This document shows positions 4,569 to 21,774 of a stretch of 64,000 nucleotides of DNA, piece after piece; positions within the stretch are counted from its first letter, which is position 1; each line of letters begins with the position of its first letter. This DNA comes from an uncultured Prevotella sp. GTDB lineage: Bacteria > Bacteroidota > Bacteroidia > Bacteroidales > Bacteroidaceae. The notes under the pieces are model-generated. The model was not told where the DNA came from. It was given only the letters and a program-made list of their open reading frames with translations, and did no database searches. The stretch covers positions 62,001 to 126,000 of the forward strand of contig CAMBOI010000003.1 in assembly GCA_945869265.1 (NCBI GenBank). Direction: 5' to 3'. The position numbers and the translations under genes were made by a program.

Positions 4569-7310
4569 ATGAAGAAACTACTGTCTTTGCCCCCTAATCT
4601 CGTGGGCTCATTTCACCAGATAACAGGTCTCGACCGCAGTGAGTATTTCTGTACCAACGACCCCGTTGGACATAAGCTCGGCAGCGGTGGAGGCACCACC
4701 TATCTCCTCGAGCAATGCTATAAATCAGAAACAGAGCCACCGTTCCCTGCAGTTTCGCTGCAGGGCTCCATCCCCTCCACCCCCTCCTTCTCCTCCTGGC
4801 TCGCCTCGGAGAAGCGCCTCCTCCTCCACGCCGGAGGTCAGAGCCGCCGCCTTCCCTCCTATGCCCCCTCGGGCAAGATACTCACTCCCATCCCCGTGTT
4901 CCGATGGGAGAGGGGACAGCGTCTCTCACAGTCGTTGCTCTCCCTGCAGTTGCCGCTATACGAGCGACTGATGTCTCTCGCCCCTGATAATATCCACACG
5001 ATGATTGTGAGCGGCGATGTGTATATCCGCGCCGCCGAACAGTTGCCGCCTGTGCCAGATGCCGACGTGGTGTGCTATGGCTTGTGGCTCGACTCCTCGA
5101 TAGCCAAGGACCACGGGGTATTCGTCTCCGACCGTCGCACTCCCTCTGTTCTCAAACAGATGCTGCAAAAGCCATCTGTCGAGAAACTGCAAGAATTGCT
5201 TGGCTCGCATTTCTATCTCACTGACATCGGTGTATGGTTACTTTCCGACAGGGCTGTTAAGGCTCTTATGAAACATTCCAAGAAGGATGGCGAGATTATC
5301 GAGTATGACCTCTATTCGGAATTCGGTTGCGCTCTTGGTACCGACCCCATCATTGACGACAACGAACTGCGCTCTCTGTCTGTGGCTATTTTGCCATTGC
5401 CAGGAGGTGAGTTCTATCATTACGGTACAAGCAGGGAGATGATTTCATCCACTGTTGCCATACAGAACATTGTCAACGACCAAAGGGAGATAATGCACAA
5501 CGGGCGCAAACCCCAGCCTTCCATCTTCGTGCAGAATGCCGTGATGAAGATACCAGTCACTGCCGACAACCGCAATATATGGATAGAGAACTCATACATC
5601 GGCCCTCGTTGGCATCTGTCTCATGATAATATCATCACCGGTGTGCCCCAGAATGATTGGGATATCACCCTCGCTCCTGGCGAATGTATAGATGTTGTCC
5701 CCATAGGCGATAGCGAATATGCTATCCGCCGCTATAATATCGACGATCGCTTCGCGGGTCCTGCACAGCAGGCGCCCATATTCCCCGTATATCCGGATTT
5801 CCCATCTACCCCGGCTCCCCCATCTCCCCCGGCTCCGGCCACCGTTCCCCGCAGTTTTGCTGCGGGGCCCCGCTTCCTCTCCGCCGAGGCCCTCTCCACC
5901 GAAGCCAACCTCGTGCGCCTCTTTGCACAGCGCCGCTCCTTCCAGCGCGCCAACTGGCGCGCCCTTGCCGCCAACTGGCGACATAGCGTCTTCTATCAGC
6001 TCGACCTCGAGGATGCTGCCCGCCATTTCAGCGAGATGGATATCCCCATGCCTGCACCATTACCCGACGATGCCCCCCTGCTCACGCGCATCCAGGATGC
6101 CATGTTCCGTGGCAATAGCGAGGCGGCATTCTCCCTCTTGCAACATGGGCTAACGGAGACTGTCCTCGCCGAGAAGCAGATGCCACGCATGTCGGTATCT
6201 ACAGACCAGATAGTATGGGCGCGCAGTCCGGTGCGCATTGACATTGCCGGCGGATGGACTGACACCCCGCCGTTCTGCCTTATGGAAGGCGGCAATGTCA
6301 TCAATCTCGCCATCGAACTCAACGGGCAGCCGCCCCTGCAGACCTACGTTCGTCCGTGCAGCGAACCGCATATTGTGCTTCGCAGTATCGACCTTGGTGC
6401 CGTCGAGGTGGTGGATACCTTTGAACAACTTGCTGATTATAATAAGGTGGGCAGTCCGTTCTCTATTCCCAAGGCGGCTCTTGCTCTCGCAGGATTCCTC
6501 CCGGGCTTCTCTGCCGACGCTTATCCTACGCTGCGTGCCCAACTCGAAGCCTTCGGTTGTGGTATTGAACTCACCCTGCTCTCTGCTATTCCCGCAGGCA
6601 GTGGATTGGGTACGAGCAGTATTCTTGCCGCTACTGTACTCGGTGCCGTTAGTGATTTCTGCTCATTGGCATGGGACAAGAGCGAGATAGGCAAGCGCAC
6701 GCTCGTCCTCGAACAGATGCTCACCACCGGTGGCGGTTGGCAAGACCAGTTTGGTGGTGTGCTTGGCGGTGTCAAACTGCTACAGACGCAGAAGGGATTC
6801 AATCAGCAACCGCTTGTCAGGTGGATGCCTGACGACGTGTTCACACAACCCGAATATGCCTCTTGTCATCTGCTCTACTATACAGGTATCACGCGCACTG
6901 CCAAGACTATCCTTTCAGAGATTGTCCGGCGTATGTTCCTCAACAGCAACGGACAACTCCGTCTGCTGCGCGAGATGAAGGCGCATACCCTCGATATGTA
7001 TGATGCCATTCAGCGACAGGACTTCTGTCGAATGGGACAGCTCGTTCGCACCACATGGCAACAGAACCAGCTGCTCGACAGCGGCACCAATCCCGATGGC
7101 GTACGCAGTATCACTGATATGGTGGACGACCTCTGTCTTGGCTATAAGCTTCCCGGTGCTGGCGGTGGCGGCTATCTATATATGGTGGCTAAAGACCCCG
7201 AGGCGGCTGTGCGTATCAAGCAAATTCTCTCTGCCAATATCACTACTCCCAATGCGCGCTTTGTAGAGATGACACTCAGTCGCAAGGGACTTCAAATATC
7301 AAGAAGCTAA
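4569..7310 (+). CDS. fkp: Bifunctional L-fucokinase / GDP-L-fucose pyrophosphorylase
   Basis: A 913-residue protein close in size to Bacteroides Fkp (949). The N-terminal half is the pyrophosphorylase: GGGTTYLLEQCYKS near residue 40 and the nucleotidyltransferase signature HAGGQSRRLPSYAPSGK near 87-104. The C-terminal half is a GHMP kinase: RIDIAGGWTDTPP near 554, PAGSGLGTSS near 674 and LPGAGGGGY near 860. It phosphorylates L-fucose and converts Fuc-1-P with GTP to GDP-fucose, the donor for fucosylated surface glycans. The divergent fucP would supply the sugar. Two short palindromic elements are inserted in frame, at residues 57-67 (inside the pyrophosphorylase, just before the HAGG loop) and 424-434 (the Pro-rich linker between the domains). 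Confidence 0.95.
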   Translation: MKKLLSLPPNLVGSFHQITGLDRSEYFCTNDPVGHKLGSGGGTTYLLEQCYKSETEPPFPAVSLQGSIPSTPSFSSWLASEKRLLLHAGGQSRRLPSYAPSGKILTPIPVFRWERGQRLSQSLLSLQLPLYERLMSLAPDNIHTMIVSGDVYIRAAEQLPPVPDADVVCYGLWLDSSIAKDHGVFVSDRRTPSVLKQMLQKPSVEKLQELLGSHFYLTDIGVWLLSDRAVKALMKHSKKDGEIIEYDLYSEFGCALGTDPIIDDNELRSLSVAILPLPGGEFYHYGTSREMISSTVAIQNIVNDQREIMHNGRKPQPSIFVQNAVMKIPVTADNRNIWIENSYIGPRWHLSHDNIITGVPQNDWDITLAPGECIDVVPIGDSEYAIRRYNIDDRFAGPAQQAPIFPVYPDFPSTPAPPSPPAPATVPRSFAAGPRFLSAEALSTEANLVRLFAQRRSFQRANWRALAANWRHSVFYQLDLEDAARHFSEMDIPMPAPLPDDAPLLTRIQDAMFRGNSEAAFSLLQHGLTETVLAEKQMPRMSVSTDQIVWARSPVRIDIAGGWTDTPPFCLMEGGNVINLAIELNGQPPLQTYVRPCSEPHIVLRSIDLGAVEVVDTFEQLADYNKVGSPFSIPKAALALAGFLPGFSADAYPTLRAQLEAFGCGIELTLLSAIPAGSGLGTSSILAATVLGAVSDFCSLAWDKSEIGKRTLVLEQMLTTGGGWQDQFGGVLGGVKLLQTQKGFNQQPLVRWMPDDVFTQPEYASCHLLYYTGITRTAKTILSEIVRRMFLNSNGQLRLLREMKAHTLDMYDAIQRQDFCRMGQLVRTTWQQNQLLDSGTNPDGVRSITDMVDDLCLGYKLPGAGGGGYLYMVAKDPEAAVRIKQILSANITTPNARFVEMTLSRKGLQISRS
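4737..4769 (+). repeat. Intragenic palindromic element, copy A (in fkp)
   Basis: CCACCGTT (4738-4744, sharing the C at 4745 with the stem), then stem CCCTGCAG (4745-4752), loop TTTCG (4753-4757) and stem CTGCAGGG (4758-4765). It is translated in frame as PPFPAVSLQGS and followed by a C-rich, Pro/Ser-coding stretch. Family shared with 5839-5867, 17344-17372 and 20496-20524. Confidence 0.75.
5839..5867 (+). repeat. Intragenic palindromic element, copy B (in fkp linker)
   Basis: CCACCGTT followed by stem CCCCGCAG (5847-5854), loop TTTTG and stem CTGCGGGG (5860-5867), translated as ATVPRSFAAGP. A Pro-rich minisatellite with the unit CCCCGGCTCCCCCATCT lies directly 5' (about 5800-5838). Confidence 0.75.
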
Positions 7311-7336
7311 GATTTCAAATATCAAGAAGCTAAGAT
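7291..7336. repeat. 23-bp perfect tandem duplication across the fkp-GSCFA junction
   Basis: Two identical 23-bp copies (7291-7313, 7314-7336), each beginning TTCAAATATC and ending GCTAAGAT. Copy 1 carries the last codons and TAA of fkp; the end of copy 2 supplies the AT of the next ATG. It looks like a recent slippage duplication. Confidence 0.9.
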
Positions 7337-8159
7337 GGAATTCAGAACCGTTGTAGATATTGCCGCTCCCGACTTCTGTATTGAGCCGGAGCACAGGATA
7401 CTCACCGTTGGCTCGTGCTTTGCCGACCATCTCGGACGCAAGTTTCGCGACGAGGCTTTCGTTGTCGATGTCAACCCTTACGGTGTGATGTACAATCCTG
7501 TGAGCATATTACATACCGTGGAGAGATACGGCGAGGCGGTGGATGTGGCTATCATCACGCTTGGCACCAATCATGTCTATCGCGAGAAAGCCACGGGTGA
7601 GATTGTGGATAACTGCCAAAAGCGCCCGCAGACTCTTTTTCAGGAGGAGCAACTGACTATCGGTCAGTGTCGCGACAGTTTGCTCAAGGCTATAGATGTC
7701 TTGCGCAGTAGCAATCCCCTCACCAAGATAATCCTTACCGTGTCTCCCATACGCTATGCCAAGTATGGCTATCATGCCAGTCAACTCTCCAAGGCGACAT
7801 TGCTTCTTGCCGTGGATAGTCTCTTGAGGGATAGCGACCTCGGCAAGGCTGGGGGAGTGTATTATTTTCCTGCCTACGAGATCATAAACGACGAACTGCG
7901 CGACTATCGCTTTTATGCTCCCGACATGCTCCATCCCTCCCAGCAGGCGGTGGATTATATATGGGAGAGGTTTGTTGCCATTGTCTTTAGTGATTCCACA
8001 CGTGAATATCTTCGCGAGTGGAAGCCAATAAAGGAAGCACTTGCCCATCGGCCGTTCAATCCCGACTCCGATGCCTACCGCTCCTTTCTTGCCCGAACAA
8101 TAGAGCAAAAACAGCGTCTTTCGGATAAATACCCTCACCTCAAGTCAATAAATCAGTGA
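7335..8159 (+). CDS. GSCFA-domain protein
   Basis: A 274-residue protein with the diagnostic motif VGSCFADHLGRKF near residue 30, VNPYGVMYNP, TLGTNHVY and the C-terminal APDMLHPSQQAVDYIWERF. GSCFA proteins belong to the SGNH/GDSL hydrolase superfamily: the GSCFA serine, the GTN block and the DxxHPS motif correspond to catalytic blocks I, III and V. The substrate is unknown; family members often act on acylated glycans. It starts 24 bp after fkp and is probably co-transcribed with it, so a role in modifying fucosylated glycans is a reasonable guess only. Confidence 0.85.
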   Translation: MEFRTVVDIAAPDFCIEPEHRILTVGSCFADHLGRKFRDEAFVVDVNPYGVMYNPVSILHTVERYGEAVDVAIITLGTNHVYREKATGEIVDNCQKRPQTLFQEEQLTIGQCRDSLLKAIDVLRSSNPLTKIILTVSPIRYAKYGYHASQLSKATLLLAVDSLLRDSDLGKAGGVYYFPAYEIINDELRDYRFYAPDMLHPSQQAVDYIWERFVAIVFSDSTREYLREWKPIKEALAHRPFNPDSDAYRSFLARTIEQKQRLSDKYPHLKSINQ

Positions 8160-8209
8160 TTATCGGTGTTAAATAATCCTAAAAGCATTGTTATTTAGAT
8201 TATTTATAC

Positions 8210-8217
8210 TATATTTG
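8210..8217 (+). promoter_or_regulatory. -7 promoter box of the beta-barrel gene
   Basis: TATATTTG, with a TTG at 8188-8190 placed 19 bp upstream as the -33 element; 30 bp before the ATG at 8248. Confidence 0.65.
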
Positions 8218-8247
8218 CACGTGATTAATTCAAGACAAGATTTTAAA

Positions 8248-8934
8248 ATGAAGAAAAAAGGATTATTAACTTGGTTGATTTCAATAATCGCCTTAACCAT
8301 GGCTATGCCTGTGATGGCGCAGAATTATCATAACGGACGCCCCGAAAGGCCTTCATATAATGGAGGTTATAACAACCATACTCTCGATGGCAATGAGATA
8401 TACTACGGTCTGCGTCTCGGACTTGGATTCGCCACGGTGAATAACTCCGAGCTTGACAAGTATGACGGTCCCAGCAGTCGCACTGGCTTAAACATTGGTG
8501 CCGTTGCCGGTTTCCAGCTCTCTCCCTCGGCTCCTGTATATCTTGAGTCGGGATTGTTCTATACAGAGAAGGGCGGACGCAACAATAAGAAGCAGGATAT
8601 CGACTTCAATCTCAACTATCTCGAACTGCCCATCCTTGTGAAGTATTGTGTTGACCTTGATGGCGAGTTCTCCCTCCAGCCCTTCGTCGGCGGTTATCTC
8701 GCTTATGGAGTGGGAGGAAAGATCAAGCGTCACACCGACCGCACCATCGAGTCGGCATTCTCTCGCGACCTCTTCAAGCGTTTTGATGGCGGTCTTCGCT
8801 TCGGTTGTGGCATTGAATACCAGATGCTCTATGCCGACCTTTCCTACGAGCTTGGTCTTGCCAACATCGGCCGTGATGCTTTCGAGAAAACCCACAACTC
8901 CTGTTTCTATATGAACATTGGTGTAAATTTCTAA
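8248..8934 (+). CDS. Small outer-membrane beta-barrel protein (PorT-like)
   Basis: A 228-residue protein with a clear signal peptide (MKKKGLLTWLISIIALTMAMPVMAQ). A long alternating polar/aromatic pattern follows (YYGLRLGLGFATV, LYTEKGGRNNKK-like turns, LPILVKYCV), ending in NIGVNF, the usual C-terminal beta-signal. This is the plan of the 'outer membrane protein beta-barrel domain' family seen in PorT-like proteins. Start 8248 is chosen because the preceding in-frame codons would overlap the promoter. Eight to ten strands are expected. No specific cargo or function can be read from the sequence. Confidence 0.75.
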   Translation: MKKKGLLTWLISIIALTMAMPVMAQNYHNGRPERPSYNGGYNNHTLDGNEIYYGLRLGLGFATVNNSELDKYDGPSSRTGLNIGAVAGFQLSPSAPVYLESGLFYTEKGGRNNKKQDIDFNLNYLELPILVKYCVDLDGEFSLQPFVGGYLAYGVGGKIKRHTDRTIESAFSRDLFKRFDGGLRFGCGIEYQMLYADLSYELGLANIGRDAFEKTHNSCFYMNIGVNF

Positions 8935-9054
8935 TATATATAATAAGGTATAGAAATAATGAGAAAATAGGGCACTATAGGTGATAAATTGAACAAAATG
9001 AATAATTTTTTGAAAAAAGTTGGAAAAAAATTAGTTTGTTTCAAAAATTATTAT

Positions 9055-9062
9055 TACCTTTG
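9055..9062 (+). promoter_or_regulatory. -7 promoter box of the lipoprotein gene
   Basis: TACCTTTG, followed by a roughly 100-nt AT-rich 5' leader before the ATG at 9169. The long A-rich leader and strongly biased codon choice suggest high expression. Confidence 0.6.
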
Positions 9063-9168
9063 CCCCGAATTTCATTAATGATAGATAGTATATACGAAAA
9101 AAATAACAATTGAGAACATAAAGTAAACAATTTAATATTAATAAGTCTAATTTTAATTTTTAAAAGAG

Positions 9169-11220
9169 ATGAAAAGAAAATTAACTAGTATTTTGCTTAT
9201 GTCTGCCCTTCTCGTGGGTGGCGCAAGCACATTCGTTTCTTGTAAGGACTTCGATGGCGACTCAGTAGCTGAGAACAACGCCAAGTTAGCAGGTCTCGAC
9301 GCACTGCTTCAAGAGAAGATACAGGAACTTAACGCCCTTAAGACTAAGGTAGATGGCCAGGGTGAGAAGATTGACGATCTCCTTAGCCGTGTTGCTACCG
9401 CTGAGGACAAGCTCAATTCAATCATTTGGATTGTTGACTATGAGTCTGAACTTAGGGCTTGGGCACTCGCTCAGAAGGATGATCAGCTCCTCGACTATCT
9501 CTATGGTCTGAAGTCTGTATGTCCTGACTATGAGGATCTCGTAACAAAGCAGTATCTTGCACAGTATTGCTCTGCTGACACCGAGGAGTTCGTTGACGCT
9601 ATCGAGGATTGCATCAACAAGAAGATTGCTGAGTACTGCAAGCTCGAGGGTCTTCAGTCTATCGAGGACTTCATGAACCTCGTTAACCAGATTCCTACAT
9701 TTGTTCAGACTGCAAAACAGAAGCTCGCTGAGCTCGAGGGCCAGGACAAGCTTCTCAATGCAAGAATTGACAAGCTCGTAACAAGCGTTAACGTGGATAT
9801 GGTTTCTAATCCTATCTATGGAACATTCAACACTCCGTTCGGTATTAAGAGCTATGTTCTCACTGGTTTCGTAGGTGGTCAGATTGAGAAAGCTGATTTC
9901 AACGGTGTAAAGGTTGGCGGTCTCGCTGCTTCTCTTGATGCTGGAAATGTTTATCTTACAGTTAACCCTGCTGAGGTTGACGCTGAGGGATGGAGCTTGG
10001 ATCTCGTTGGTCGTGATGGCAAGCCCGCTCCTGGTTTCGGTAACCTCGTACTCGTAGCTGACAATACTCCTGTTACAACTATTAGCACTCGTGCTTCTAA
10101 CGGTCTCGGTGGCTATGTTGCTGCTGCAAAGTTGGATGATGCTGCCGCTGCTAAGGTTGTCATTGACAAGGAAGGCCTGAAGGATGTTGCTAAGAACGTT
10201 CTTGGCAAGCTTCGTGGTCAAGAGGCTCTTGATATCACCAACGCTGTTTACACTATCTACAACCAGTTTAACAATATCATTCCGCAGTACTATGCAATCA
10301 AGTGCCAGGTTAAGGATGATAAGTCTAATGGTGAAACCAAGACTAAGACTTATGTTTCTGACTACGACATCGCTGCTGTAACTGTTAAGCCTCTCGCTTA
10401 TACAACTAACATTGGTGTAGTTGGTGAGAAGGTTAACATTCCTTCTATCCCAGCTTTCGAGGATCTGCTCGGTATTGAGATTAAGAACATTGAGTTCGAT
10501 GACATCAAAGTAAATAAGATTACAGGTATGCAGTTTGCTGCAAAAGTTCCTAGTGCTAATATGTATGCAGGTGTTATGCCTACTTCTAATGGTATTTATG
10601 ATGATAACACAGCTAAGAAATTATATGTCTATGTAGATGGTGAAATATTGACTTTTGAATATTCAAAGCGTGATAATACTACTACTACAGATACTTACCT
10701 CTATACAATGGAAGGTGATGTAGATGATGTTATCCGCGACATCAACAGTCAGCTTTCAAAGGTTGAATCTAATGTTAACACAACCCTCAACAGCGTTAAG
10801 GGTGCTCTTGACAAGGCTGGCAAGTACTACAACAAGGTTGCTCCTAAGCTGAACAAGGTTATCTCTAAGGTTAACTACGTCCTCGACAATGCTAACCAGC
10901 TCCTCCAGCCTATAATGCTCGGTGTCGCTGATGGTGACGCATTCCGTCTGAGCGAGGTAGAAGCTGCTCCTACAGTAGTTAAGGCTAACGGTGAAAATGC
11001 AATTGTCCTTGCTCCTACTTCTTACACACTCGAGCTCCTCGCTCCTGCTTATAAGAAGAGCATCAAGGTTAATGGTACAGAGCTCAACAATGCAACTCTT
11101 GACGGTGCTACCAAGACTGTAGTTGCTACTCTCAAGGCTGGTAAGAACACTATCGAGTACTCTACAATGGACTTCTACGGAAATGTAGTTACTAAGAAGT
11201 ACTACGTTGAAGTACGATAA
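9169..11220 (+). CDS. Coiled-coil surface lipoprotein of unknown function
   Basis: A 683-residue protein. The lipoprotein signal ends in the lipobox STFVSC-KD, so it should be lipidated at Cys26. Residues about 38-85 form a heptad-rich coiled coil (ALLQEKIQELNALKTKVDGQ...LLSRVATAEDKL), and a second helical segment occurs near 525-575 (INSQLSKVESNVNTTLNSVK). Between them lie beta-rich, Ala/Val-rich segments, and the C-terminus (IEYSTMDFYGNVVTKKYYVEV) resembles an Ig-like domain. Codon choice is strongly biased to GCT, AAG and CTC, unlike the flanking genes, which in this lineage indicates a very abundant protein. It is followed after 39 bp by the OmpA-family porin, so the two may form a surface assembly. 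No named family recognised. Confidence 0.75.
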   Translation: MKRKLTSILLMSALLVGGASTFVSCKDFDGDSVAENNAKLAGLDALLQEKIQELNALKTKVDGQGEKIDDLLSRVATAEDKLNSIIWIVDYESELRAWALAQKDDQLLDYLYGLKSVCPDYEDLVTKQYLAQYCSADTEEFVDAIEDCINKKIAEYCKLEGLQSIEDFMNLVNQIPTFVQTAKQKLAELEGQDKLLNARIDKLVTSVNVDMVSNPIYGTFNTPFGIKSYVLTGFVGGQIEKADFNGVKVGGLAASLDAGNVYLTVNPAEVDAEGWSLDLVGRDGKPAPGFGNLVLVADNTPVTTISTRASNGLGGYVAAAKLDDAAAAKVVIDKEGLKDVAKNVLGKLRGQEALDITNAVYTIYNQFNNIIPQYYAIKCQVKDDKSNGETKTKTYVSDYDIAAVTVKPLAYTTNIGVVGEKVNIPSIPAFEDLLGIEIKNIEFDDIKVNKITGMQFAAKVPSANMYAGVMPTSNGIYDDNTAKKLYVYVDGEILTFEYSKRDNTTTTDTYLYTMEGDVDDVIRDINSQLSKVESNVNTTLNSVKGALDKAGKYYNKVAPKLNKVISKVNYVLDNANQLLQPIMLGVADGDAFRLSEVEAAPTVVKANGENAIVLAPTSYTLELLAPAYKKSIKVNGTELNNATLDGATKTVVATLKAGKNTIEYSTMDFYGNVVTKKYYVEVR

Positions 11221-11259
11221 TTGACACATAAAAAGAATTTTTAATACTGAATACATATT

Positions 11260-12393
11260 ATGAAAATTAAGAATATTCTTCTGTCAGGTGTAATGGCAAT
11301 GGGTTGTCTCGTTGCCAATGCACAGGACGCACCTAAGACCGAATACGTATTCAATCCTCATTGGTACGTACAGGGTCAGATTGGTGCCCAGTACACCTTG
11401 GGTGAGGTGAAGTTTGGAGATCTTATTTCTCCGAACATCCAGCTCGGTGTTGGTCGTCAGTTCTCTCCGATTTGGGGTGCCCGCTTCTCTGTTAATTCTT
11501 GGCAGAGTAAGGGTGGTATCAACGAGTACAGTTGGGCTGATGGTGCAAAGGTAGGTAAAGAGAAGTACAACTGGAAGTATATCGCTCCTATGGTTGACGG
11601 AACTCTTAACCTCTCTAACGCTCTCTGTGGTTATAATCCTACTCGTACCGTAAGTGTTGGTCTCTTAGCTGGTATCGGTCTGAACGTAGGTTTCAGCAAC
11701 GACGATGCTGTTGCTCTCGCAGCAACTGCAGATAAACACAATCATGGTTCTGAGAACCTTAAATACGCTTGGGACGGAACTAAGGTCCGCTTCGTAGGCC
11801 GCGTAGGTGCTAACGTTGACTTCCGCATTGACGATGCTTGGTCAATCGGTATTGAGGCTAATGCCAACGTACTTAGCGATAACTACAACTCAAAGAAAGC
11901 TGGCAACGGTGACTGGTACTTCAACGCTCTCGTTGGTGTACGCTATAACATCGGCAAGACCTACTCTACACGCACTATCACTCCTCCCGCTCCAGTGGAG
12001 AAGATCGTAGAGCGCATCGTAGAGAAGATTGTTGAGGTTCCCGCTAAGACTGAAGAGCGCGTTAAGGGTGGTAAGCTCCGTCGCGAGGTATTCTTCACCA
12101 TCGGTAAGAACAAGATCAGCCAGGATGGCTTCAACAAGATTCAGGAAGTTGTTGACTTCATGAAGAAGTATCCTGAGGCAACAGTTACTGTAACAGGTTA
12201 TGCTGACCGTGGTACAGGTTCTGCTAAGTTCAACGACCGTATCGCCGCTCGTCGTGCTGACGTTGTTGAGACAGAGCTCGTTAAACGTGGTATCGCTCGC
12301 GACCGCATCGTGAAGTCTTCTAAGGGTTCACGCGTACAGCCGTTCAACGACAACGACATGAACCGCGTTACTATCTGTATCGCAGAGGATTAA
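11260..12393 (+). CDS. OmpA-family major outer-membrane protein
   Basis: A 377-residue protein with a signal peptide (MKIKNILLSGVMAMGCLVANAQ). An N-terminal beta-barrel of roughly residues 30-235 ends in NALVGVRYNIGKTY, followed by a Pro/Val hinge (PVEKIVERIVEKIVEVPAKT). The C-terminal OmpA peptidoglycan-binding domain covers about residues 270-377: VFFTIGKNKI, VTVTGYADRGTGSAKFNDRIAARRADVV and NRVTICI. The GYAD...N...R.A.RR pattern is the peptidoglycan-contacting motif. The protein links the outer membrane to the wall, as the major OmpA-like proteins of Porphyromonas and Bacteroides do. Codon bias matches the upstream lipoprotein, and the 39-bp gap suggests one transcript. Confidence 0.93.
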   Translation: MKIKNILLSGVMAMGCLVANAQDAPKTEYVFNPHWYVQGQIGAQYTLGEVKFGDLISPNIQLGVGRQFSPIWGARFSVNSWQSKGGINEYSWADGAKVGKEKYNWKYIAPMVDGTLNLSNALCGYNPTRTVSVGLLAGIGLNVGFSNDDAVALAATADKHNHGSENLKYAWDGTKVRFVGRVGANVDFRIDDAWSIGIEANANVLSDNYNSKKAGNGDWYFNALVGVRYNIGKTYSTRTITPPAPVEKIVERIVEKIVEVPAKTEERVKGGKLRREVFFTIGKNKISQDGFNKIQEVVDFMKKYPEATVTVTGYADRGTGSAKFNDRIAARRADVVETELVKRGIARDRIVKSSKGSRVQPFNDNDMNRVTICIAED

Positions 12394-12475: not shown

Positions 12476-12496
12476 CTTTGTAACATTATTAGAACC

Positions 12497-13720: not shown

Positions 13721-16108
13721 TTAACGACTGAGAATCTTTCGTGACGACTTCCCTTGGCGTGAGATAATTACCTCAGGGTGTTGTGACGTATTAATGCGAA
13801 CACCCTTGAGATTGTAATAATCGGCTGGCGTATCATCTGAGAGAACCTGATTGATACCAGTGTCTGTATCCACAATAGCCTCAATGGCAAGGCTCTTGCA
13901 TGAGGGCATAAGGAATGAGTAGGAGGAATCTTCGACAGTCTCGGTAGATTCCTTCGAATTATTGTCTGTGGTGGTAACCTTCCATCCCTTGACGATATAT
14001 CCCTCACGCAGCGATTTGCCAGAGATAGTGATGCGGCGATCCTTGAAGAATTTGCCGTCAAAGAGTGCCTCGCTCAACGTTATTCCATTGATGTCTATCT
14101 CCATCTCGCTGCGTTCTGTCTCTGTGGCAGCCTTGTTGACGCTGAGTGGTATCGGAGTGCCCAATTTATAATATTCAGCCAAGTATTTATAGAAATATCC
14201 GGCACGGATAGCAATCCAATTGCGGGCTTTACGAAGTTCTTCATCATATTTGGGCCACCATTCGTTGATTAGCTTGCGATGATGGGGATATTCATACTTT
14301 ATAGCATCGTAGATAGGGTCGAGGATAGCACGGGTGCCGCGCTCATTGAGCCAGTCGCCCATATACACTGCTGCACGGTCGATAAACTCGCGCTGGAAGT
14401 CGGCATCTTCCATCAATCGTCGGAAAAGACGAGTGTGCTCGTATTGGTTGCCCCAATTGGTTCCTGGATCATAGTTGGGGTCGTATATCCACTTGATGGT
14501 ATTATAGTTTGCGTTTACATCATAAAGTCCCAATCCAAAGTCGGTGTCCTTCATAATCCAGCGCCAGCGTCCTCCCTCAGCGATAGGACGCCACATCACG
14601 ATATTGTTTCCGGGGAAGTCGCGGTTGTTGTAGAAGAGGTTGACAAGCATGATATTAAGAAATTCCATGGTGTCCATCCATTTCTCATATTCGGCGAGAG
14701 TATGTCCATGCTCTGCATAGAAGTCCTTAAAGGCATTATAGTTATCCCATGTACCTTCCTTCAGTTCCCACCAGTTTTCAAACATGTCGATGTCCTCCAG
14801 ACCGTCGTAATTGGTATATATATTATCCTCATTGCTGCGCTCACGGATATTCAGCATGCCCATGTATTCGCCGTTGAAATATACGATGGCGGGGCGGTAA
14901 GCCTGATAGTCGATGTCGCAATGGCGTGCGGTATTGAGTTGGATGACAGCATCTCGCATAAAAAGATAGTCGAAGTCATTGCCGGCATTGCGGAGTGCCA
15001 ACGACTTGAAATCGGTTATGCCGGGACGGTCTTCTGGGAAGAATTCATAGTTGAGACGTTTCTCGCCAAATCGCTTGTTGGCATATACGGCAAGTGATTT
15101 GCGTGCCGAACTGCGTGTGGCTCCACCCATGATACGTGCTTCGCACAGTTGGTTTATCTGACTCTCCTTTTCTGGTTCGAAGAAAAACTCTATGTTCATG
15201 GGGCGACGCCAGTCAAACTCATAGTTTTTCTTGCCCGATTGGTAGTTGCCATCCACATAAATACCGATTTTAGAGTCGTAGAGATAATTCTTGTCTGTGG
15301 AAATGGAGATGACGGGTAGGGTGATGTCACGGGGGAAGAAGATGTAAGACTGAGCAGTGGCTCGTGGCGAAAGCATACCGTCGAGGAAGAGTTTTGCCTT
15401 GACGATAGTGGTTTTGGATATTGAGATGGGGCTATTGTAGAGATAGCTGGTGCGTGTGGGTTCCGACCCGTCGGTGGTGTATCTTATCTCAGCTCCTTCT
15501 GAGCCCTCGGGTAGTGATAGTTCGAGGGTAAATGGTTGTCCGTCTTTCATAACCTTACCCTTTACGCAGAACACGGGAGAACCGAGGATATCCTTGCAGG
15601 TCTTACCGCAGTTGGCTGCAGCAGGAGTGGCCTCTGACATATATCCCCAAGAGTCGCTGCCGTCGTTGGTGCGTCCGTAAGCAATATTCGGAGCGGGTTG
15701 TTTCTTCAGTCCTTCCACCTTGTCGATAAGTGTGCCGTTGTTGTAGAGATATACAGCGCAGCCCTTGCCCGATTCCAGTCGGAAGGGTGTGTGAAGGCCT
15801 GTCTCCTCCTTGTCGCAATAGACAATGACGTAGGAACCCGGTTGGATGGTTTTGTCGGGCAGTGCCCAGGCTTTTTTCGGGTCATCCTCGTCGGAGATGG
15901 AATAGGCATTGAGATTTACGGCTGTTGCACCGCTGTTGTAGAGCTCTACCCATGAGTCGGGGAATTCATTGATGTCATCCATGATGCAGTCGATGTTTGA
16001 TTGCATAAGCTCGTTGATGATGAGCTGGGCATGAGCAGTTGATACTGGGCTTGCAATAGATGTTGCAAGCACGAGGGATGTTAGGAGTTTTCTCTTTTTT
16101 GTTGTCAT
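13721..16108 (-). CDS. CotH-kinase / lamin-tail domain secreted protein
   Basis: A 795-residue protein with a signal peptide (ends STAHAQ). An N-terminal lamin-tail domain (about 27-150) shows INELMQSN, DSWVELYNSGATAVNL and GSYVIVY. A chitobiase/Fn3-like beta-sandwich (about 170-260) contains IRYTTDGSEPT. The CotH kinase-like domain (about 270-640) contains FFPEDRPGITDFKSLALRNAG, YFNGEYMGMLNIRER and WIMKDTDFGLGL. CotH proteins are atypical kinases; spore-coat CotH phosphorylates coat proteins, while roles in non-sporing Bacteroidota are unclear. The C-terminal tail DYYNLKGVRINTSQHPEVII has the YNLxGxR sorting-like pattern. It lies 110 bp downstream of dacB across a G-rich repeat. Confidence 0.85.
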   Translation of the reverse strand: MTTKKRKLLTSLVLATSIASPVSTAHAQLIINELMQSNIDCIMDDINEFPDSWVELYNSGATAVNLNAYSISDEDDPKKAWALPDKTIQPGSYVIVYCDKEETGLHTPFRLESGKGCAVYLYNNGTLIDKVEGLKKQPAPNIAYGRTNDGSDSWGYMSEATPAAANCGKTCKDILGSPVFCVKGKVMKDGQPFTLELSLPEGSEGAEIRYTTDGSEPTRTSYLYNSPISISKTTIVKAKLFLDGMLSPRATAQSYIFFPRDITLPVISISTDKNYLYDSKIGIYVDGNYQSGKKNYEFDWRRPMNIEFFFEPEKESQINQLCEARIMGGATRSSARKSLAVYANKRFGEKRLNYEFFPEDRPGITDFKSLALRNAGNDFDYLFMRDAVIQLNTARHCDIDYQAYRPAIVYFNGEYMGMLNIRERSNEDNIYTNYDGLEDIDMFENWWELKEGTWDNYNAFKDFYAEHGHTLAEYEKWMDTMEFLNIMLVNLFYNNRDFPGNNIVMWRPIAEGGRWRWIMKDTDFGLGLYDVNANYNTIKWIYDPNYDPGTNWGNQYEHTRLFRRLMEDADFQREFIDRAAVYMGDWLNERGTRAILDPIYDAIKYEYPHHRKLINEWWPKYDEELRKARNWIAIRAGYFYKYLAEYYKLGTPIPLSVNKAATETERSEMEIDINGITLSEALFDGKFFKDRRITISGKSLREGYIVKGWKVTTTDNNSKESTETVEDSSYSFLMPSCKSLAIEAIVDTDTGINQVLSDDTPADYYNLKGVRINTSQHPEVIISRQGKSSRKILSR

Positions 16109-16121
16109 GATTTAGGTGATT

Positions 16122-16218
16122 TAATATTTTGGGTTATTGGGGTTATTGGGGTTGATGTAGGGGGTGTAGGGGGTGTAGGGGATTTAGGGGGGGGTAGGTG
16201 TTGTAGGGGGATGTAGGT
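16122..16218. repeat. G-rich tandem repeats (9-mer GGGGTTATT and 9-mer TAGGGGGTG units)
   Basis: Three units of the form GGGGTTATT/GGGGTTGAT, then repeated GTAGGGGG units and a run of eight G. At least four G-tracts of four or more lie within 80 bp, enough for a G-quadruplex on the plus strand. It occupies almost the whole gap between dacB and the CotH gene. Confidence 0.8.
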
Positions 16219-17484
16219 TTAGGGACGACAGAGCTCTTTGCAGATTTGATCTTGTAGGGCGCGGGCGGGACTATCTTTTAGAGAGCCATTGTTGATGATG
16301 GCAAAGCAGAGGGTATGGTTGTTGGGAGTGGAACAGTAGCCGGCAAGAGATTGAACACCTGATAGGGTGCCGGTCTTTGCCCTCACGTTGTCGGCAGTGA
16401 AGGCATTGCGCATTCTGCGCTTGAGAGTGCCGTCGGAACCGGCGATGGGCAGTGAGGGATAGAGATGCAGATATACATTGCTGTTGCGATAGGCATACTT
16501 GAGCATTTCCACCTCTAATTCGGCAGTTGCATAATTATATAATGATAGTCCACTGCCGTCGGCAAAGACATAGTCTGATGGGTTAAGACCAAGTTTGCGC
16601 ACAAGGCGCTTGATGAGGTTGCGTGCATTCTGGGCAGTGCAAGGTCGATTGCCCGAGGAAGCCGCAAGCTGATAGAAAAGCGACTCGGCATATAGATTGT
16701 CGCTGTCCTTCATCATTCGCATGAGAATCTGGTCGATGGAATGAGTGCGGTCAATGAGTTCGTAGGCATCCGAGGGAGTGTCCCCCTCAATGACATTACC
16801 CTGGATGACTATTCCGGCGTCAACCAGTTCGCTGATAAATCTTTCCATAAAATTGTCATTGCGCGAGATAAGCAGAGGAGAGAGCACAGGATTGTCGTCA
16901 TCCCAACACCATCCCCATCCCAGTCGGTCGTTATTCTTCATCATCTTGTCGGCAACAAGGCAACCCCTTATAGTGTCAACACCGAGTGAGCGAATACCTT
17001 CGACAAAGGCTTTCAAGTCATCGGAATTGAAGCGCGGGTCGAAGCCCCCCACGCAATAGACATCGCCAGTGAGCACATTGTCGGTGATGCTGCCTGTATA
17101 GCGCAGGGAAGTGCGGAATTGATAGGAGCCGCCGAGGCGGTCGATGGCAGTGATGGCAGTGATGAGCTTCATGGTGGAGGCAGGACGGAGTGTCTTGCGC
17201 TCGTTATAGCGGAAGATGGTGCTGTCGGCAGTGAGGTCATATACCATCACACCGATATTTGATGTGGAGAGGAGGGGAGAGGAGAAGATGATATTCTCGA
17301 GTCTTGCCTTCACATTGTAGGGCCAGGGGAGGGAATCAGAGGGCAGGCTGACAAAATCAGCCTGGACGGTGGCTTGGGATACGGAATCAGCCTGGACGGT
17401 GGCATCCATACCATCGTCGAGCGACTGCGCTTGCAGAGTAAAATTGGCAATAAATGCCAGAAAAATAGTGATAATTGTCTTCAT
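16219..17484 (-). CDS. dacB: D-alanyl-D-alanine carboxypeptidase/endopeptidase, PBP4 (S13) family
   Basis: A 421-residue protein with a signal peptide (MKTIITIFLAFIANFTLQAQ). The three penicillin-binding motifs are present: S103-T-M-K106 in RPASTMKLITAI, S-D-N in KDSDNLYAESLF, and K-T-G in VRAKTGTLSGVQ. It should trim peptidoglycan stem peptides or cross-links in the periplasm. The ATG at 17484 is preferred over an in-frame TTG three codons upstream, which lies inside the promoter box. Residues 28-43 contain a 10-residue tandem repeat (ATVQADSVSQ / ATVQADFVSL) made by two copies of a palindromic element, located in the flexible linker after the signal peptide where an insertion would be tolerated. 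Confidence 0.92.
   Translation of the reverse strand: MKTIITIFLAFIANFTLQAQSLDDGMDATVQADSVSQATVQADFVSLPSDSLPWPYNVKARLENIIFSSPLLSTSNIGVMVYDLTADSTIFRYNERKTLRPASTMKLITAITAIDRLGGSYQFRTSLRYTGSITDNVLTGDVYCVGGFDPRFNSDDLKAFVEGIRSLGVDTIRGCLVADKMMKNNDRLGWGWCWDDDNPVLSPLLISRNDNFMERFISELVDAGIVIQGNVIEGDTPSDAYELIDRTHSIDQILMRMMKDSDNLYAESLFYQLAASSGNRPCTAQNARNLIKRLVRKLGLNPSDYVFADGSGLSLYNYATAELEVEMLKYAYRNSNVYLHLYPSLPIAGSDGTLKRRMRNAFTADNVRAKTGTLSGVQSLAGYCSTPNNHTLCFAIINNGSLKDSPARALQDQICKELCRP
17344..17372 (-). repeat. Intragenic palindromic element, copy D (in dacB)
   Basis: Read on the minus strand: CCACCGTC (17372-17365), stem CAGGCTGA, loop TTTTG (17356-17352), stem TCAGCCTG (17351-17344). Translated as ATVQADFVSL. 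Same flank, loop and layout as copies A-C with a different but fully paired stem. Confidence 0.7.
17374..17402 (-). repeat. Degenerate palindromic element, copy E (in dacB)
   Basis: A second CCACCGTC plus CAGGCTGA and loop-like TTCCG lies exactly 30 bp from copy D. The distal stem arm reads TATCCCAA and no longer pairs. This gives the 10-residue repeat ATVQADSVSQ. Confidence 0.6.
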
Positions 17485-17490
17485 CGGGTG

Positions 17491-17498
17491 CAAAATTA
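17491..17498 (-). promoter_or_regulatory. -7 promoter box of dacB, almost at the start codon
   Basis: TAATTTTG on the minus strand ends only 6 bp before the dacB ATG (17484), so the transcript would have little or no 5' leader. Confidence 0.5.
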
Positions 17499-17562
17499 CT
17501 CAAAAATCGAGGAAAATACAAAAAATTACGCAACTCTTTTCCTTTATATCAATAAAAATACT

Positions 17563-17570
17563 TAAATTTG
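17563..17570 (+). promoter_or_regulatory. -7 promoter box of nadB
   Basis: TAAATTTG on the plus strand, 22 bp before the nadB ATG at 17593. Confidence 0.6.
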
Positions 17571-17592
17571 CAGCGAAATAAAGAAAGAACAC

Positions 17593-19179
17593 ATGGTTTA
17601 TAAGTATGACTTTCTGATTATCGGCGCAGGAGTCGCCGGTATGAGTTACGCCCTTAAGGTAGCAAGAGCGCACAAAGGTAAGGTGTGCATGATATGCAAG
17701 ACTTCCCTCGACGAAGCCAACACGTCATTCGCACAAGGTGGAGTGGCTTCGGTGACAAACCTGGAGCTCGACAATTTCGACAAGCACATCGAGGACACGA
17801 TGATAGCCGGCGACTATATCAGCGACCCCAAAGCAGTGGAGTTGGTGGTGAAGAATGCGCCAAGGCAAATACGTGAACTGGTGGAGTGGGGTGTGAACTT
17901 CGACAGGAAGGAGAACGGTGAGTTCGACCTCCATCGCGAAGGCGGTCACTCGGAGTTTCGTATCCTGCATCACAAGGATGATACAGGAGCCGAGATACAA
18001 CGCGGATTGATGGAGGCAGTGCGCAACTGTCCCGACATCACCATCAAGGAGAACCATTTCGCCGTGGAGATTATCACCCAGCACCATTTGGGAGCGAGGG
18101 TGACACGCCGCACTCCCTACATCAACTGCTATGGAGCATACGTGCTGAATCCTGAGACAGAGAAGGTGGATACCTATCTGAGTAAGGTGACGGTGATGTG
18201 TACAGGCGGTTGCGGTGCAGTATATCAGACAACCACCAACCCCGTGATAGCCACAGGTGACGGTGAGGCAATGGTGTATAGGGCAAAGGGAACAGTGGCA
18301 GACATGGAGTTTGTGCAGTTCCATCCCACTGCATTGTATCACCCAGGCGAGACACATCCCGCCTTTCTCATCACCGAGGCCATGCGTGGATATGGCGGTA
18401 TATTGAAACTGCCCAACGGCGAGACCTTTATGGAGAAATACGACGAGCGCCTGTCGCTTGCACCCCGCGACATTGTGGCAAGGGCAATCGACAAGGAGAT
18501 GAAGATACACGGACTCGACCACGTGTGCCTCGATGTCACTCATAAAGACCCCGAGGAGACTCGCAAGCACTTCCCCAACATATACCAGAAATGCAAGTCG
18601 ATGGGTATAGACATCACTACCGATTATATCCCCGTAAAGCCAGCAGCCCACTATATGTGTGGCGGAATAAAGGTGGATCTCAATGGATTGTCGAGCATAG
18701 ACAGGCTCTATGCCTTGGGAGAATGTTCGTGCACGGGTTTGCATGGCGGCAACCGATTGGCAAGCAACTCGCTCATCGAGGCAGTGGTATATGCCGACGC
18801 GGCAGCCAAGCACTCATTGGATCATGTGGATTTGTATGACTTCAACGAGAAGGTGCCCGAGTGGAACGACGAGGGTACAATGACCAACGAGGAGAAAGTG
18901 CTCATCACACAGAGTGTGAAGGAGGTGGGTGAGATAATGTCGAACTACGTGGGAATAGTGCGTAGCGACCTGAGACTGAAGCGCGCCTGGGACCGACTCG
19001 ATATGCTGTATGAGGAGACTGAAAACCTGTTTAAGAGAGTGAAGGCAAGCAGGGATATCTGCGAGCTCAGAAACATGATAAACGTGGGTTATCTGATTAC
19101 TCGTTGGGCTATCGAGAGAAAAGAGTGTAGAGGACTGCATTATACTATTGATTATCCTGTGCATGCTTATGATAAATGA
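17593..19179 (+). CDS. nadB: L-aspartate oxidase
   Basis: A 528-residue flavoprotein of the succinate dehydrogenase/fumarate reductase flavoprotein family. It has the N-terminal FAD-binding IIGAGVAGMSYAL, the NTSFAQGGVASV segment, the FHREGGHS-equivalent LHREGGHSEFRILH, a second FAD block YALGECSCTGLHGGNRLASNSL, and the active-site region EFVQFHPTALY. It oxidises L-aspartate to iminoaspartate, the first step of de novo NAD synthesis; nadA and nadC are not in the window. Length is normal for NadB, and the absence of a quinone-reductase partner or haem subunit genes nearby argues against SdhA/FrdA. Confidence 0.93.
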   Translation: MVYKYDFLIIGAGVAGMSYALKVARAHKGKVCMICKTSLDEANTSFAQGGVASVTNLELDNFDKHIEDTMIAGDYISDPKAVELVVKNAPRQIRELVEWGVNFDRKENGEFDLHREGGHSEFRILHHKDDTGAEIQRGLMEAVRNCPDITIKENHFAVEIITQHHLGARVTRRTPYINCYGAYVLNPETEKVDTYLSKVTVMCTGGCGAVYQTTTNPVIATGDGEAMVYRAKGTVADMEFVQFHPTALYHPGETHPAFLITEAMRGYGGILKLPNGETFMEKYDERLSLAPRDIVARAIDKEMKIHGLDHVCLDVTHKDPEETRKHFPNIYQKCKSMGIDITTDYIPVKPAAHYMCGGIKVDLNGLSSIDRLYALGECSCTGLHGGNRLASNSLIEAVVYADAAAKHSLDHVDLYDFNEKVPEWNDEGTMTNEEKVLITQSVKEVGEIMSNYVGIVRSDLRLKRAWDRLDMLYEETENLFKRVKASRDICELRNMINVGYLITRWAIERKECRGLHYTIDYPVHAYDK

Positions 19180-19182
19180 TAA

Positions 19183-19226
19183 ATGAGGAATGAGGAATTA
19201 GGAATTAGGGATTAGGGATTAGGAAT
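19183..19226. repeat. Octamer repeat array of the (A)GGAATTA/GGGATTA type
   Basis: Tandem 7-8 bp units (GAGGAAT, GAGGAATTA, GGAATTA, GGGATTA, GGGATTA, GGAAT) fill the 45 bp between the nadB stop and the murF-alr ATG. Confidence 0.8.
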
Positions 19227-21774
19227 GAGATATTCTATTGAGAAGATAACTACGCTCATTGGGGCGCGAAGGATTGGTGAGGCAGAGGCTAATGTTAGCT
19301 GGCTGCTGACGGATAGCAGGTCACTATGCTTTCCAGAGGAAACCTTGTTTTTTGCATTGCGCTCAGGGCGTAATGATGGACATAACTATATACCAGAACT
19401 CTATCGACGCGGAGTGAGAAACTTCGTAGTGGAGAGAGGACGGTTTAGACTTGCGGCTGACACTCAATTCGAAAGGGCTAATTTCCTTGAGGTGGTGAGC
19501 CCTTTGGAAGCACTACAGAGATTGGCGGAGAGACATAGGGATGAATTCGATGTGCCTATCGTGGGTATTACCGGAAGTAACGGTAAGACGATGGTGAAGG
19601 AATGGCTCTATCAGTTGCTGTCGCCGCAGAAGGTGGTGACACGCTCCCCAAAAAGCTATAACTCGCAGATAGGCGTGCCGCTGTCGGTATGGTTGCTTGG
19701 TGAACAGACCGAGGTGGGGCTCTTTGAGGCTGGAATTAGTCAGCCTGGAGAGATGCAGGCACTGAGAGACATCATCCAACCAACGATAGGCGTGCTGACA
19801 TCACTTGGTGGGGCACATCAGGAAAACTTCCGCTCGATGGACGAGAAATGCCAGGAGAAACTGTCGCTTTTCCATGATGCCAAGGTGGTGGCATATAACT
19901 CCGACGACAACGTGGTGAGCCGCTGCATGCGCAAGTCGGGCTACCGTGGTGAGAAACTGTCATGGAGCAAGGAAGACCCGCAGGCCGCCATGTTCATCAA
20001 GAAGATAGAGAGGCGCGAAAGTATTTCCACCTTATATTATATATATAAAGGCAAGGAGGGCACATATCATCTGCCCTTTATCGACGATGCCTCGGTGGAG
20101 TGCTCAATAGCCGCGGCAGTGGTGGCACTATACTTAGGAGTGACACCCGAGGAACTGGACGTGAGGATGTCGCAGTTGGAGCCAGTGGCGATGAGATTGG
20201 AGGTGAAGGAAGGACAGCATGGATGTACGATTATCAACGACTCATATAACTCGGATATCAACTCGCTCGACATTGCTCTCGACTTCATGAGCCGACGACC
20301 AGAGCAGCAAGGAAAGAGCCGCACGCTGATACTCAGTGATATATACCAGAGCGGAATGATGCCGCAGGAGCTATATCATAGGGTGATGGAACTGGCTGTG
20401 AAACGTGGGGTGGATAAGTTTATCGGTATTGGAAAGGAGATAAAGAGGACACTCGAGGCTGGAGGGCTGGCTGATGGAGGCCAGGCAGATGGAGGCCAGG
20501 CAGCGAAACTGCCTGGAACGGTGGCTGGTAATGACGGGATGAGGGCTTTTCTGTTTGAGGATGTGGAGGAGTTTCTGAGGTCGGAGGTTTATAGGGGACT
20601 GAAGAATGAGGTTGTTCTGATAAAGGGAGCAAGGGATTTCGGTTTCGACCATATCAGCGAGATGCTTGAGCAGAAGGTGCACGAGACGATCTTGGAGGTT
20701 AACCTGAATGCCGTCGTTGAGAATCTCAATCATTTCCGCTCGTATATGAAACCCGAAACCAAGATGATATGTATGGTGAAGGCAGATGCCTACGGAGCCG
20801 GTGCCATCGAGGTGTCGAAGACACTACAGGACCATCGTGTGGATTATCTTGCCGTGGCGGTGGCTGACGAGGGAGTGACACTGCGCAAGAACGGTATCAC
20901 GAGCAACATCATGATAATGAATCCCGAAATGACGGCATTCAAGACGATGTTCGATTATGACCTCGAACCAGAGGTATATAGTTTCCGACTTATGGATGCA
21001 CTCATCAAGGCAGCCGAGAAGGAGGGAATAACCAATTATCCCGTACACATAAAGCTTGACACCGGTATGCACCGCCTGGGATTCGACCCAGTGAAAGACA
21101 TCGACGAGCTAATCATGCGACTAAAGCACCAGAACGCCATCATTCCGCGCTCGGTGTTCTCGCATTTCGTGGGCAGCGACAGTGATGACTTCGATACATT
21201 CTCCGCACATCAGTTTGAGCTATTTGATGTGGCAAGCAAGAAACTGCAGTCGTCATTCGACCATAAGATATTGCGCCATATCGATAACTCGGCAGGTATA
21301 GAGCACTTCCCCGAAAGGCAACTCGACGCATGCCGTCTCGGACTTGGTCTATACGGAGTGGATAGTCGTGACAACCATATCATCAACACCGTGAGCACAC
21401 TGAAGACCACAATCCTGCAATTGCGCCATGTGCCGAAAGAGGAAACAGTGGGCTACAGCCGTAAGGGTGTGCTGACAAGAGACAGTGTGATAGCCGCCAT
21501 ACCGATAGGTTATGCCGACGGGCTCAACCGCCATCTTGGTAGAGGTAAGGGCTATTGCCTGGTCAACGGTCAGAAAGCCCCGTACGTGGGCAATATCTGT
21601 ATGGACGTGGCATTGATAGACGTCACCGACATCCCTTGTAAAGAGGGAGATACAGTGGAAATTTTCGGTGAACACCTTCCAGTGACAGTGCTCTCGGATA
21701 TTCTCGACACCATCCCCTACGAAGTACTCACTGGAGTGAGCAACAGGGTTAAGAAGGTGTATTATCAAGACTAA
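19225..21774 (+). CDS. murF-alr: Bifunctional MurF ligase / alanine racemase
   Basis: An 849-residue fusion. Residues about 1-480 are UDP-MurNAc-tripeptide:D-Ala-D-Ala ligase: ATP loop GITGSNGKTMVKEW near 113, NDSYNSDINSL near 337 and KGARDFGFDHI near 469. Residues about 490-849 are a PLP-dependent alanine racemase: MVKADAYGAGA with the PLP lysine near 518, HIKLDTGMHRLGF, IPIGYADGLNR with the catalytic Tyr, and YVGNICMD. Together they make D-Ala and attach D-Ala-D-Ala to the wall precursor. The fusion is normal in Bacteroidales. Unusual are residues about 411-433, where a Gly/Ala/Asp-rich repeat and palindromic element copy C are inserted in a loop of the MurF C-terminal domain, directly before FLFEDVEEFL. 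Confidence 0.95.
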   Translation: MRYSIEKITTLIGARRIGEAEANVSWLLTDSRSLCFPEETLFFALRSGRNDGHNYIPELYRRGVRNFVVERGRFRLAADTQFERANFLEVVSPLEALQRLAERHRDEFDVPIVGITGSNGKTMVKEWLYQLLSPQKVVTRSPKSYNSQIGVPLSVWLLGEQTEVGLFEAGISQPGEMQALRDIIQPTIGVLTSLGGAHQENFRSMDEKCQEKLSLFHDAKVVAYNSDDNVVSRCMRKSGYRGEKLSWSKEDPQAAMFIKKIERRESISTLYYIYKGKEGTYHLPFIDDASVECSIAAAVVALYLGVTPEELDVRMSQLEPVAMRLEVKEGQHGCTIINDSYNSDINSLDIALDFMSRRPEQQGKSRTLILSDIYQSGMMPQELYHRVMELAVKRGVDKFIGIGKEIKRTLEAGGLADGGQADGGQAAKLPGTVAGNDGMRAFLFEDVEEFLRSEVYRGLKNEVVLIKGARDFGFDHISEMLEQKVHETILEVNLNAVVENLNHFRSYMKPETKMICMVKADAYGAGAIEVSKTLQDHRVDYLAVAVADEGVTLRKNGITSNIMIMNPEMTAFKTMFDYDLEPEVYSFRLMDALIKAAEKEGITNYPVHIKLDTGMHRLGFDPVKDIDELIMRLKHQNAIIPRSVFSHFVGSDSDDFDTFSAHQFELFDVASKKLQSSFDHKILRHIDNSAGIEHFPERQLDACRLGLGLYGVDSRDNHIINTVSTLKTTILQLRHVPKEETVGYSRKGVLTRDSVIAAIPIGYADGLNRHLGRGKGYCLVNGQKAPYVGNICMDVALIDVTDIPCKEGDTVEIFGEHLPVTVLSDILDTIPYEVLTGVSNRVKKVYYQD
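20472..20503. repeat. Minisatellite next to palindromic copy C
   Basis: Two 15-bp units of the form GATGGAGGCCAGGCA (20473-20487 and 20488-20502) encode ADGGQ repeats in MurF-Alr and run directly into the palindrome. Confidence 0.75.
20496..20524 (-). repeat. Intragenic palindromic element, copy C (in murF-alr)
   Basis: Read on the minus strand: CCACCGTT (20524-20517), stem CCAGGCAG, loop TTTCG (20508-20504), stem CTGCCTGG (20503-20496). The host gene reads it in the opposite orientation as QAAKLPGTVA, in frame. Confidence 0.75.

Follow-up and report, generated by a model that had tools for sequence, protein, structure and literature searches.

Hairpins within fkp, dacB and murF-alr of an uncultured Prevotella are most likely stranded copies of a REP-like family widespread in the genus

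Small palindromes inside protein-coding genes raise the question of where they come from and what keeps them intact. In the 64,000-nt stretch of an uncultured Prevotella genome analysed here (GenBank assembly GCA_945869265.1, contig CAMBOI010000003.1, positions 62,001 to 126,000; hereafter the window), four such hairpins lie within fkp, dacB and the murF-alr fusion gene (Table 1), and an earlier note on this DNA had described them as a family of in-frame palindromic elements. We consider it likely that they are stranded copies of a Prevotella family of repetitive extragenic palindromic (REP)-like elements, whose likely mover is a REP-associated tyrosine transposase (RAYT) with a predicted DprA-like half.

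All four palindromes are real: in each, GCCACCGTY is followed by an 8-bp stem that pairs perfectly around a TTTYG loop; their exact coordinates are given in Table 1. The stem list of the earlier note, however, had exchanged the last two stems: the unit at 17373 carries CAGGCTGA and the unit at 20525 carries CCAGGCAG. Long open reading frames enclose all four units, three of which are read in sense and occupy two different frames, while the murF-alr unit is antisense; the claimed placement in linkers of unrelated genes, in either orientation, thus holds. When up to two mismatches are allowed, the pattern is matched five times in the window, the partial copy included, compared to 1.24 ± 1.01 matches in shuffled sequence, and none of 100 shuffles reached five. 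An Rfam scan of the window gave no match at the gathering threshold.

The window's genome (G000; 2.81 Mb in 71 contigs, 98.4% complete) contains eight exact matches to the pattern and none to a reversed-pattern control. A covariance model trained on these eight copies, R1, finds nine matches at E ≤ 6.2e-5, and the next candidate follows at E = 5.46, so the genome-wide search that had been called for yields more copies than the controls. In the eight copies, 100% of the stem cells are paired, which none of 500 shuffles achieved, and seven of the eight stem pairs vary on both sides, which was reached by one of 500 shuffles. A dispersed palindromic family whose structure is constant while its stems vary, as had been proposed, is therefore present.

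The anatomy of the element was studied in a catalogue of 77 units from eight genomes, which were picked for carrying the element; orthologues are included, and the scan admitted 8-bp stems with 4- to 5-nt loops only. The majority (72 units) possess a 5-nt loop; 67 of those are perfect-stemmed, with 29 distinct left arms. The other five form a sister type with a GCCCCCGTG or GCCCTCGTG tag and a 4-nt loop, each with a different stem; the decayed sister copy of the window (16050-16078) is intact in a relative, G015 (L049:13075, minus strand). The tag of the element is GCCACCGTT, and it is preceded by an A in 75 of the 77 units. Pairing follows Watson-Crick rules in 609 of 616 stem cells, with two G.T pairs and five other combinations, and in a 28-copy alignment 64 cells vary on both sides and two are unpaired, with no one-sided change. 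G.U steps would be expected if the helix formed in RNA, and a palindrome at the DNA level is therefore favoured. By a longest-frame rule, frames of at least 200 codons enclose 54 copies, 36 in sense and 18 in antisense orientation, and 23 copies lie outside such frames. The tag lies on the C-rich strand at 73 of the 77 sites within 100 nt and at 64 of 77 at a distance of 300-1400 nt, counts that are not independent because orthologues are included; the skew may be a gene-level property, and its sign flips inside the window.

The family is found across the genus. A broader covariance model, R2, was trained on copies from six of the 398 genus genomes searched, the transposase-adjacent loci L029, L035 and L057 among them, so that some of its matches are training members; at E ≤ 0.01, it matches 146 of the 398 genomes, of which about four are expected by chance. 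Copy numbers within the genus range from 0 to 22 per genome. The R2 scan scored 18 candidates per genome and its copy numbers are thus lower bounds (18 in G015, where R1 finds 22). R1 itself has matches in eight of 60 genomes, G000 included, all of them within the genus; in G018, the match is to another palindrome. Among 393 genomes drawn from the whole order and searched at E ≤ 0.001, matches were found in G000 and in four others, the latter with one weak match each (E 2e-4 to 1e-3), and no strong match lay outside the genus. The picture drawn in the earlier note was therefore right about the family and incomplete in its extent: the family is widespread in the genus, is to be grouped with REP elements and adjoins a transposase gene in relatives.

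This transposase comprises about 330 residues, carries DHxH and YLDDNP motifs, is matched to the Y1 fold by fold comparison and scores under the curated cut-offs of family models. It is predicted to be an HUH transposase joined to a DprA-like C-terminal half that handles single-stranded DNA. Weak-scoring Y1_Tnp genes adjoin elements in G015, G154, G009 and G001, and genomes whose best Y1_Tnp score is weak (E ≥ 1e-5, a cut set after the list was seen) carry the element in 25 of 33 cases compared to 121 of the 365 remaining genomes (p = 2e-6). Relatives of the G154 protein occur in 222 of the 398 genomes. Element and transposase were found together in 127 genomes, the element only in 19, the transposase only in 95 and neither in 157 (p = 4e-23, from raw genome counts that ignore kinship). 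Mobilisation by the only Y1_Tnp gene found in G000 (G000:C6:34360-34704) was rejected: the inverted repeats flanking it differ from the element, and genomes with a strong best Y1 score (E < 1e-15) show no association with the element (29 of 68 vs 117 of 330 genomes, p = 0.27). This gene is short (L009, L010), with a YIKNQKTHH motif and long inverted repeats of its own, which contain CCCTGAAAGGGC and CCCAGGG hairpins; it resembles RAYT subclass 1.2, which is listed without REPs (PMC6006769).

At all 18 of the best full-length transposase loci (L328-L345), a model match lies downstream of the gene, and the nearest match lies 2-82 nt from the stop codon at the 16 loci measured. Eleven of the 18 possess a second hairpin in opposite orientation; at these loci, gene and near unit lie on different strands. 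Among 12 further loci, mostly partial or more distant matches, L348 (in G015) has its match upstream, L349 one inside the gene and one after it, L350 has a downstream match, and in L351, L355 and L356 the matches are within the gene; the tally of positions at both sets of loci left out some weak or partial matches, and L342, L345 and L357 were not parsed. Besides L355 and L356, the related transposase genes at L309 and L317 have hairpins in their coding sequence. A freer hairpin search beside the transposases gave mostly 7-9 bp stems and 5-nt loops. Transposases 88-100% identical to the query are accompanied by the window-type tag and the stem CTCGACAG, those with 67-75% identity mostly by (C)CAAGYGG stems, and a more distant member by a GTTGCGAC palindrome, which is found in phage genes too. 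At eight loci of distant transposase relatives in other genera, no consistent pattern of hairpins was seen. In G001:C2 (L029, L037, L339), tandem 27-nt units with a tag, a left arm, a loop and a truncated right arm are located directly 3' of the transposase gene.

Hairpins of this type are also carried by Mu-like phages. All nine R2 matches of G104 lie within 14 kb and in one orientation in a Mu-like prophage (portal, F and gp36 families), and the catalogue lists 11 units in one orientation for this prophage (L172, G104:C105:63000-82000), whose genes lie on both strands; an interpretation of the stretch as an integron-like cassette array was rejected. The virus contig IMGVR_UViG_2903631197_000004 carries the same portal and hairpins as the G104 prophage, and two IMG/VR contigs are matched by two window-type patterns, which cover certain stems only. 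Within the Mu F-like protein, a co-located palindrome in the linker was seen in ten of ten aligned phages (L205 and nine relatives), with several different sequences as judged by eye. The Mu-like Prevotella prophages L172, L205 and L216 carry sets of 11 and 5 superfamily hairpins, each set in one orientation, and the F-like linker palindrome lies about 2.07 kb past the portal start (L205-L212, L216, L240). Since the hairpins occur in Mu-like phages, phages may ferry such elements between hosts.

Hairpins of the REP type that bear a 5' tag and lie next to a RAYT gene are known, and one assayed enzyme is described to cut single-stranded REP (PMC8266576). As far as these REPtrons are described in the sources cited (PMC6006769, PMC8266576), the Prevotella family shares with them the short hairpin, the unpaired 5' tag, the dispersed copies and an adjoining gene for an HUH single-tyrosine transposase, here in relatives, often with an inverted partner hairpin. 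It differs in the tag, which is GTAG or GTGG there and AGCCACCGTT in Prevotella, in the location of most catalogued copies within long open frames and in the transposase, whose length of about 330 residues, DHxH and YLDDNP motifs and predicted DprA-like half set it apart; DNP is found nowhere in the main text of the REPtron paper. Its tag, GCCACCGTT, places the family outside the GTAG families, and it is best regarded as a new variant within REP/RAYT, as it has the hairpin and the RAYT neighbour and lacks the GTAG tag. A transposase of the HUH Y1 fold that binds hairpins is also found in IS200/IS605 elements; in these, the gene is located between a left-end and a right-end hairpin and moves with them as a unit. 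The window element consists of single hairpins, which carry neither a gene nor paired insertion-sequence ends, and at the transposase loci hairpins were seen mostly downstream.

The CGTC REPs, which include Rickettsia RPE-4 and RPE-6 and Neisseria dRS3, are described with stems of 8-9 bp and loops of 4-5 nt in five phyla, Bacteroidetes among them, with Prevotella unnamed in the main text (PMC3733652). The earlier note had considered the likeness to Rickettsia palindromic elements to be one of concept only. By the described geometry, it is closer: the 8-bp stem, the 4- or 5-nt loop and an unpaired CGT-type tag abutting the stem (CGTT here) are shared, as are copies inside genes, including UvrD-type repair genes there and a UvrD/PcrA helicase gene in Prevotella (PMC3733652). 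Several features differ from the published description. The CGTC (or TGTC, CCTC) tag is replaced by CGTT in 64 of the 72 copies with a 5-nt loop and is CGTC in two; of the first and second stem pairs, both A-T there, the first is C-G in 64 and A-T in three; and head-to-head dimers, which predominate there, correspond to two close pairs among the 77 copies, one of them inverted, although inverted pairs occur at the transposase loci as noted above (PMC3733652). In the 3-nt tail, mostly CCA there, CC is seen in 44 and CCA in five of the 72 copies. Furthermore, G-T pairs are described as frequent in REPs and are almost missing from the Prevotella family, and the CGTC REPs 'apparently lack a dedicated transposase' as described in 2013, whereas the Prevotella family has a transposase neighbour (PMC3733652). 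Because of its tag, its first stem pairs and its scarcity of dimers, the family is kept out of CGTC families 1-4. The literature search, whose coverage excluded most subscription papers, found no prior description of the element sequence, in agreement with the earlier note, or of a RAYT with DprA or a CGTC REP transposase. Cyanobacterial small dispersed repeats, which are very small and thought to be mobile, resemble the Prevotella element by description only.

In the proposed mechanism, the tagged hairpin is likely recognised in single-stranded form by the transposase, which would spread it. The conserved tag AGCCACCGTT would play the role of the GTAG tag of known REPs, and the enzyme would probably read tag, loop and shape rather than the stem sequence. 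Copies may enter single-stranded DNA of one strand type, which would account for the orientation towards the C-rich strand, and insertions into genes would persist only in flexible linkers or ends where the frame is kept. The copies of the window's genome are most likely stranded because no such transposase was found in G000; they could stay perfect through constraint or through templated repair from arm to arm.

The orthologous fkp and murF-alr sites were aligned at the DNA level in G000, G015, G371, G154 (the last three being L068, L067 and L069) and L070. The first fkp unit is kept in G015 and G371, missing in L070 and replaced by different sequence in G154. The second is present in G015 and G371, where the G371 stem reads CCCCGAAG/CTTCGGGG, both arms being altered in match, and corresponds to a 36-column gap in the two Prevotella outgroups, G154 and L070. 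Orthologues carrying the same residues, which the earlier note had named as a refuting result, were thus not seen at this site in the two outgroups. The murF-alr unit is found in all five genomes, with two copies in G154 and a decayed one in G371, and the dacB unit has an identical stem in G015 and G371. A DNA search with the C43 site of G000 matched four relatives by the hairpin only, and the host flank was not found. Across 18 orthologous groups with 37 pairs (members with repetitive flanks, G015_15, G015_19 and G104_69, were dropped and G154_44, the second of two tandem copies, was omitted), the tag diverged by 3.0%, the stem by 5.1% and the loop by 4.3%, compared to 23.3% and 18.6% for the adjoining 30 nt upstream and downstream; the constraint is overstated because only sites recognisable in both species can be counted. 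Stem changes occurred in seven of the 37 pairs, every one matched in both arms.

Several of these observations weigh against a mobile, REP-like family. With 3-5% divergence next to flanks at 19-23%, the element is more conserved than expected for a neutral parasite, decayed sites being uncounted. A clean insertion with intact flanks was not resolved: the outgroup gap at the second fkp site sits in a diverged linker, and at one extra G371 site, where G000 is without the element, the G000 linker is shorter by about 51 nt and differs in the rest as well. A GTAG/GTGG tetranucleotide 5' of the hairpin was not found. A search of solved structures with the transposase profile gave no match, and the fold comparison alone did; the transposase search of G000 and G371 gave no match at E ≤ 1e-8. 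Moreover, 95 of the 222 genomes with a transposase relative are without a detected element, the protein family being broad and R2 detecting one hairpin type, and no model match was found at six of the 12 further loci (L346, L347, L352, L353, L354, L357).

A tentative alternative, clearly less probable than stranded REP-like copies, is that the hairpins do not move, or have ceased to move, and persist as functional DNA sites such as binding or processing sites on single-stranded DNA, with or without a transposase (domesticated REP). The low divergence of the element would fit, as would the shared orientation of the 11 prophage copies and the maintenance of nine copies in G000 and at least ten in G371, in neither of which a transposase was detected. 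However, copy number varies from none to 22 within the genus, decayed copies exist (the murF site in G371; 16050-16078 in the window), and the conservation figure omits sites at which the element is gone or unrecognisable.

In quasipalindrome repair, template switching lets one arm serve as template for the other. It is somewhat less likely again that the perfect pairing is a by-product of this process, in which template switching at replication alters both arms without selection; this would be compatible with either a mobile or a functional element. The scarcity of G.T intermediates (two of 616 cells, and no one-sided changes in 224 cells), compared to the frequent G-T pairs described for REPs (PMC3733652), points in this direction, as do the matched multi-base changes at one site, where the stems are CTCGGCGA, CTCGCGAG and CTCGTGAG in G000, G015 and G154. 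The conserved tag and loop and the transposase neighbour, however, are left unexplained, and replacement by another copy would give an identical picture. A recurring peptide linker motif, to which the DNA pattern would be secondary, is suggested by the sense-strand reading at three of the four window sites and contradicted by the various frames, both strands and 23 frameless copies of the catalogue, while chance palindromes in C-rich linkers, of which loosened criteria yield 0-2 per window in 20 block-shuffled windows, are contradicted by the genome-wide counts, the gap in model scores and the positions common to several species; both have a negligible probability.

Table 1. Hairpin units and host genes of the window and further hairpin sites of its genome (contig handles of G000; gene assignments by Pfam)
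Feature	Position	Strand	Description	Context
Hairpin fkp-1	4736..4765	+	30 nt, stem CCCTGCAG, loop TTTCG	fkp, sense, frame 2
Hairpin fkp-2	5838..5867	+	30 nt, stem CCCCGCAG, loop TTTTG	fkp linker, sense, frame 0
dacB hairpin	17344..17373	-	30 nt, stem CAGGCTGA, loop TTTTG	near dacB N terminus, sense, frame 0
murF-alr hairpin	20496..20525	-	30 nt, stem CCAGGCAG, loop TTTCG	MurF-Alr linker, antisense
Partial copy	17382..17403	-	tag and left arm	adjoins dacB unit
Decayed sister-family member	16050..16078	-	4-nt loop, GCCCTCGTG-type tag	near start of CotH-domain gene
fkp	4569..7310	+	fucose pyrophosphorylase / GHMP kinase	host gene
dacB	16219..17493	-	peptidase S13, open reading frame as listed	host gene
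murF-alr	19225..21774	+	fusion	host gene
G000 site	C4			in UvrD/PcrA helicase gene
G000 site	C26			antisense, frame with outer-membrane-barrel domain
G000 site	C43			in adenylation/reductase gene
G000 site	C2:70556			antisense, near end of E1-E2 ATPase frame
G000 site	C2:15774			no long frame around hairpin

If the hairpins are stranded copies of a REP-like family, small in-frame insertions can reshape linkers in enzymes, MurF-Alr, DacB and the UvrD/PcrA helicase among them, and the stems represent a natural experiment in the maintenance of DNA palindromes. The predicted DprA-like fusion suggests that hairpin mobility is linked to the handling of single-stranded DNA. It is an improbable, though attractive, extension that the HUH-DprA-like fusion inserts CGT-tagged hairpins into single-stranded DNA according to their shape and not their stem sequence, rebuilding one arm on the other, and that this class is the missing mover of CGTC-type REPs, those of Rickettsia and Neisseria included. 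CGTC-type REPs, including the gene-inserted RPE-4 and RPE-6, were thought to be without a transposase as described in 2013 (PMC3733652); as a family of the same geometry now adjoins a RAYT-like gene, the question of their mover becomes testable with one purified protein.
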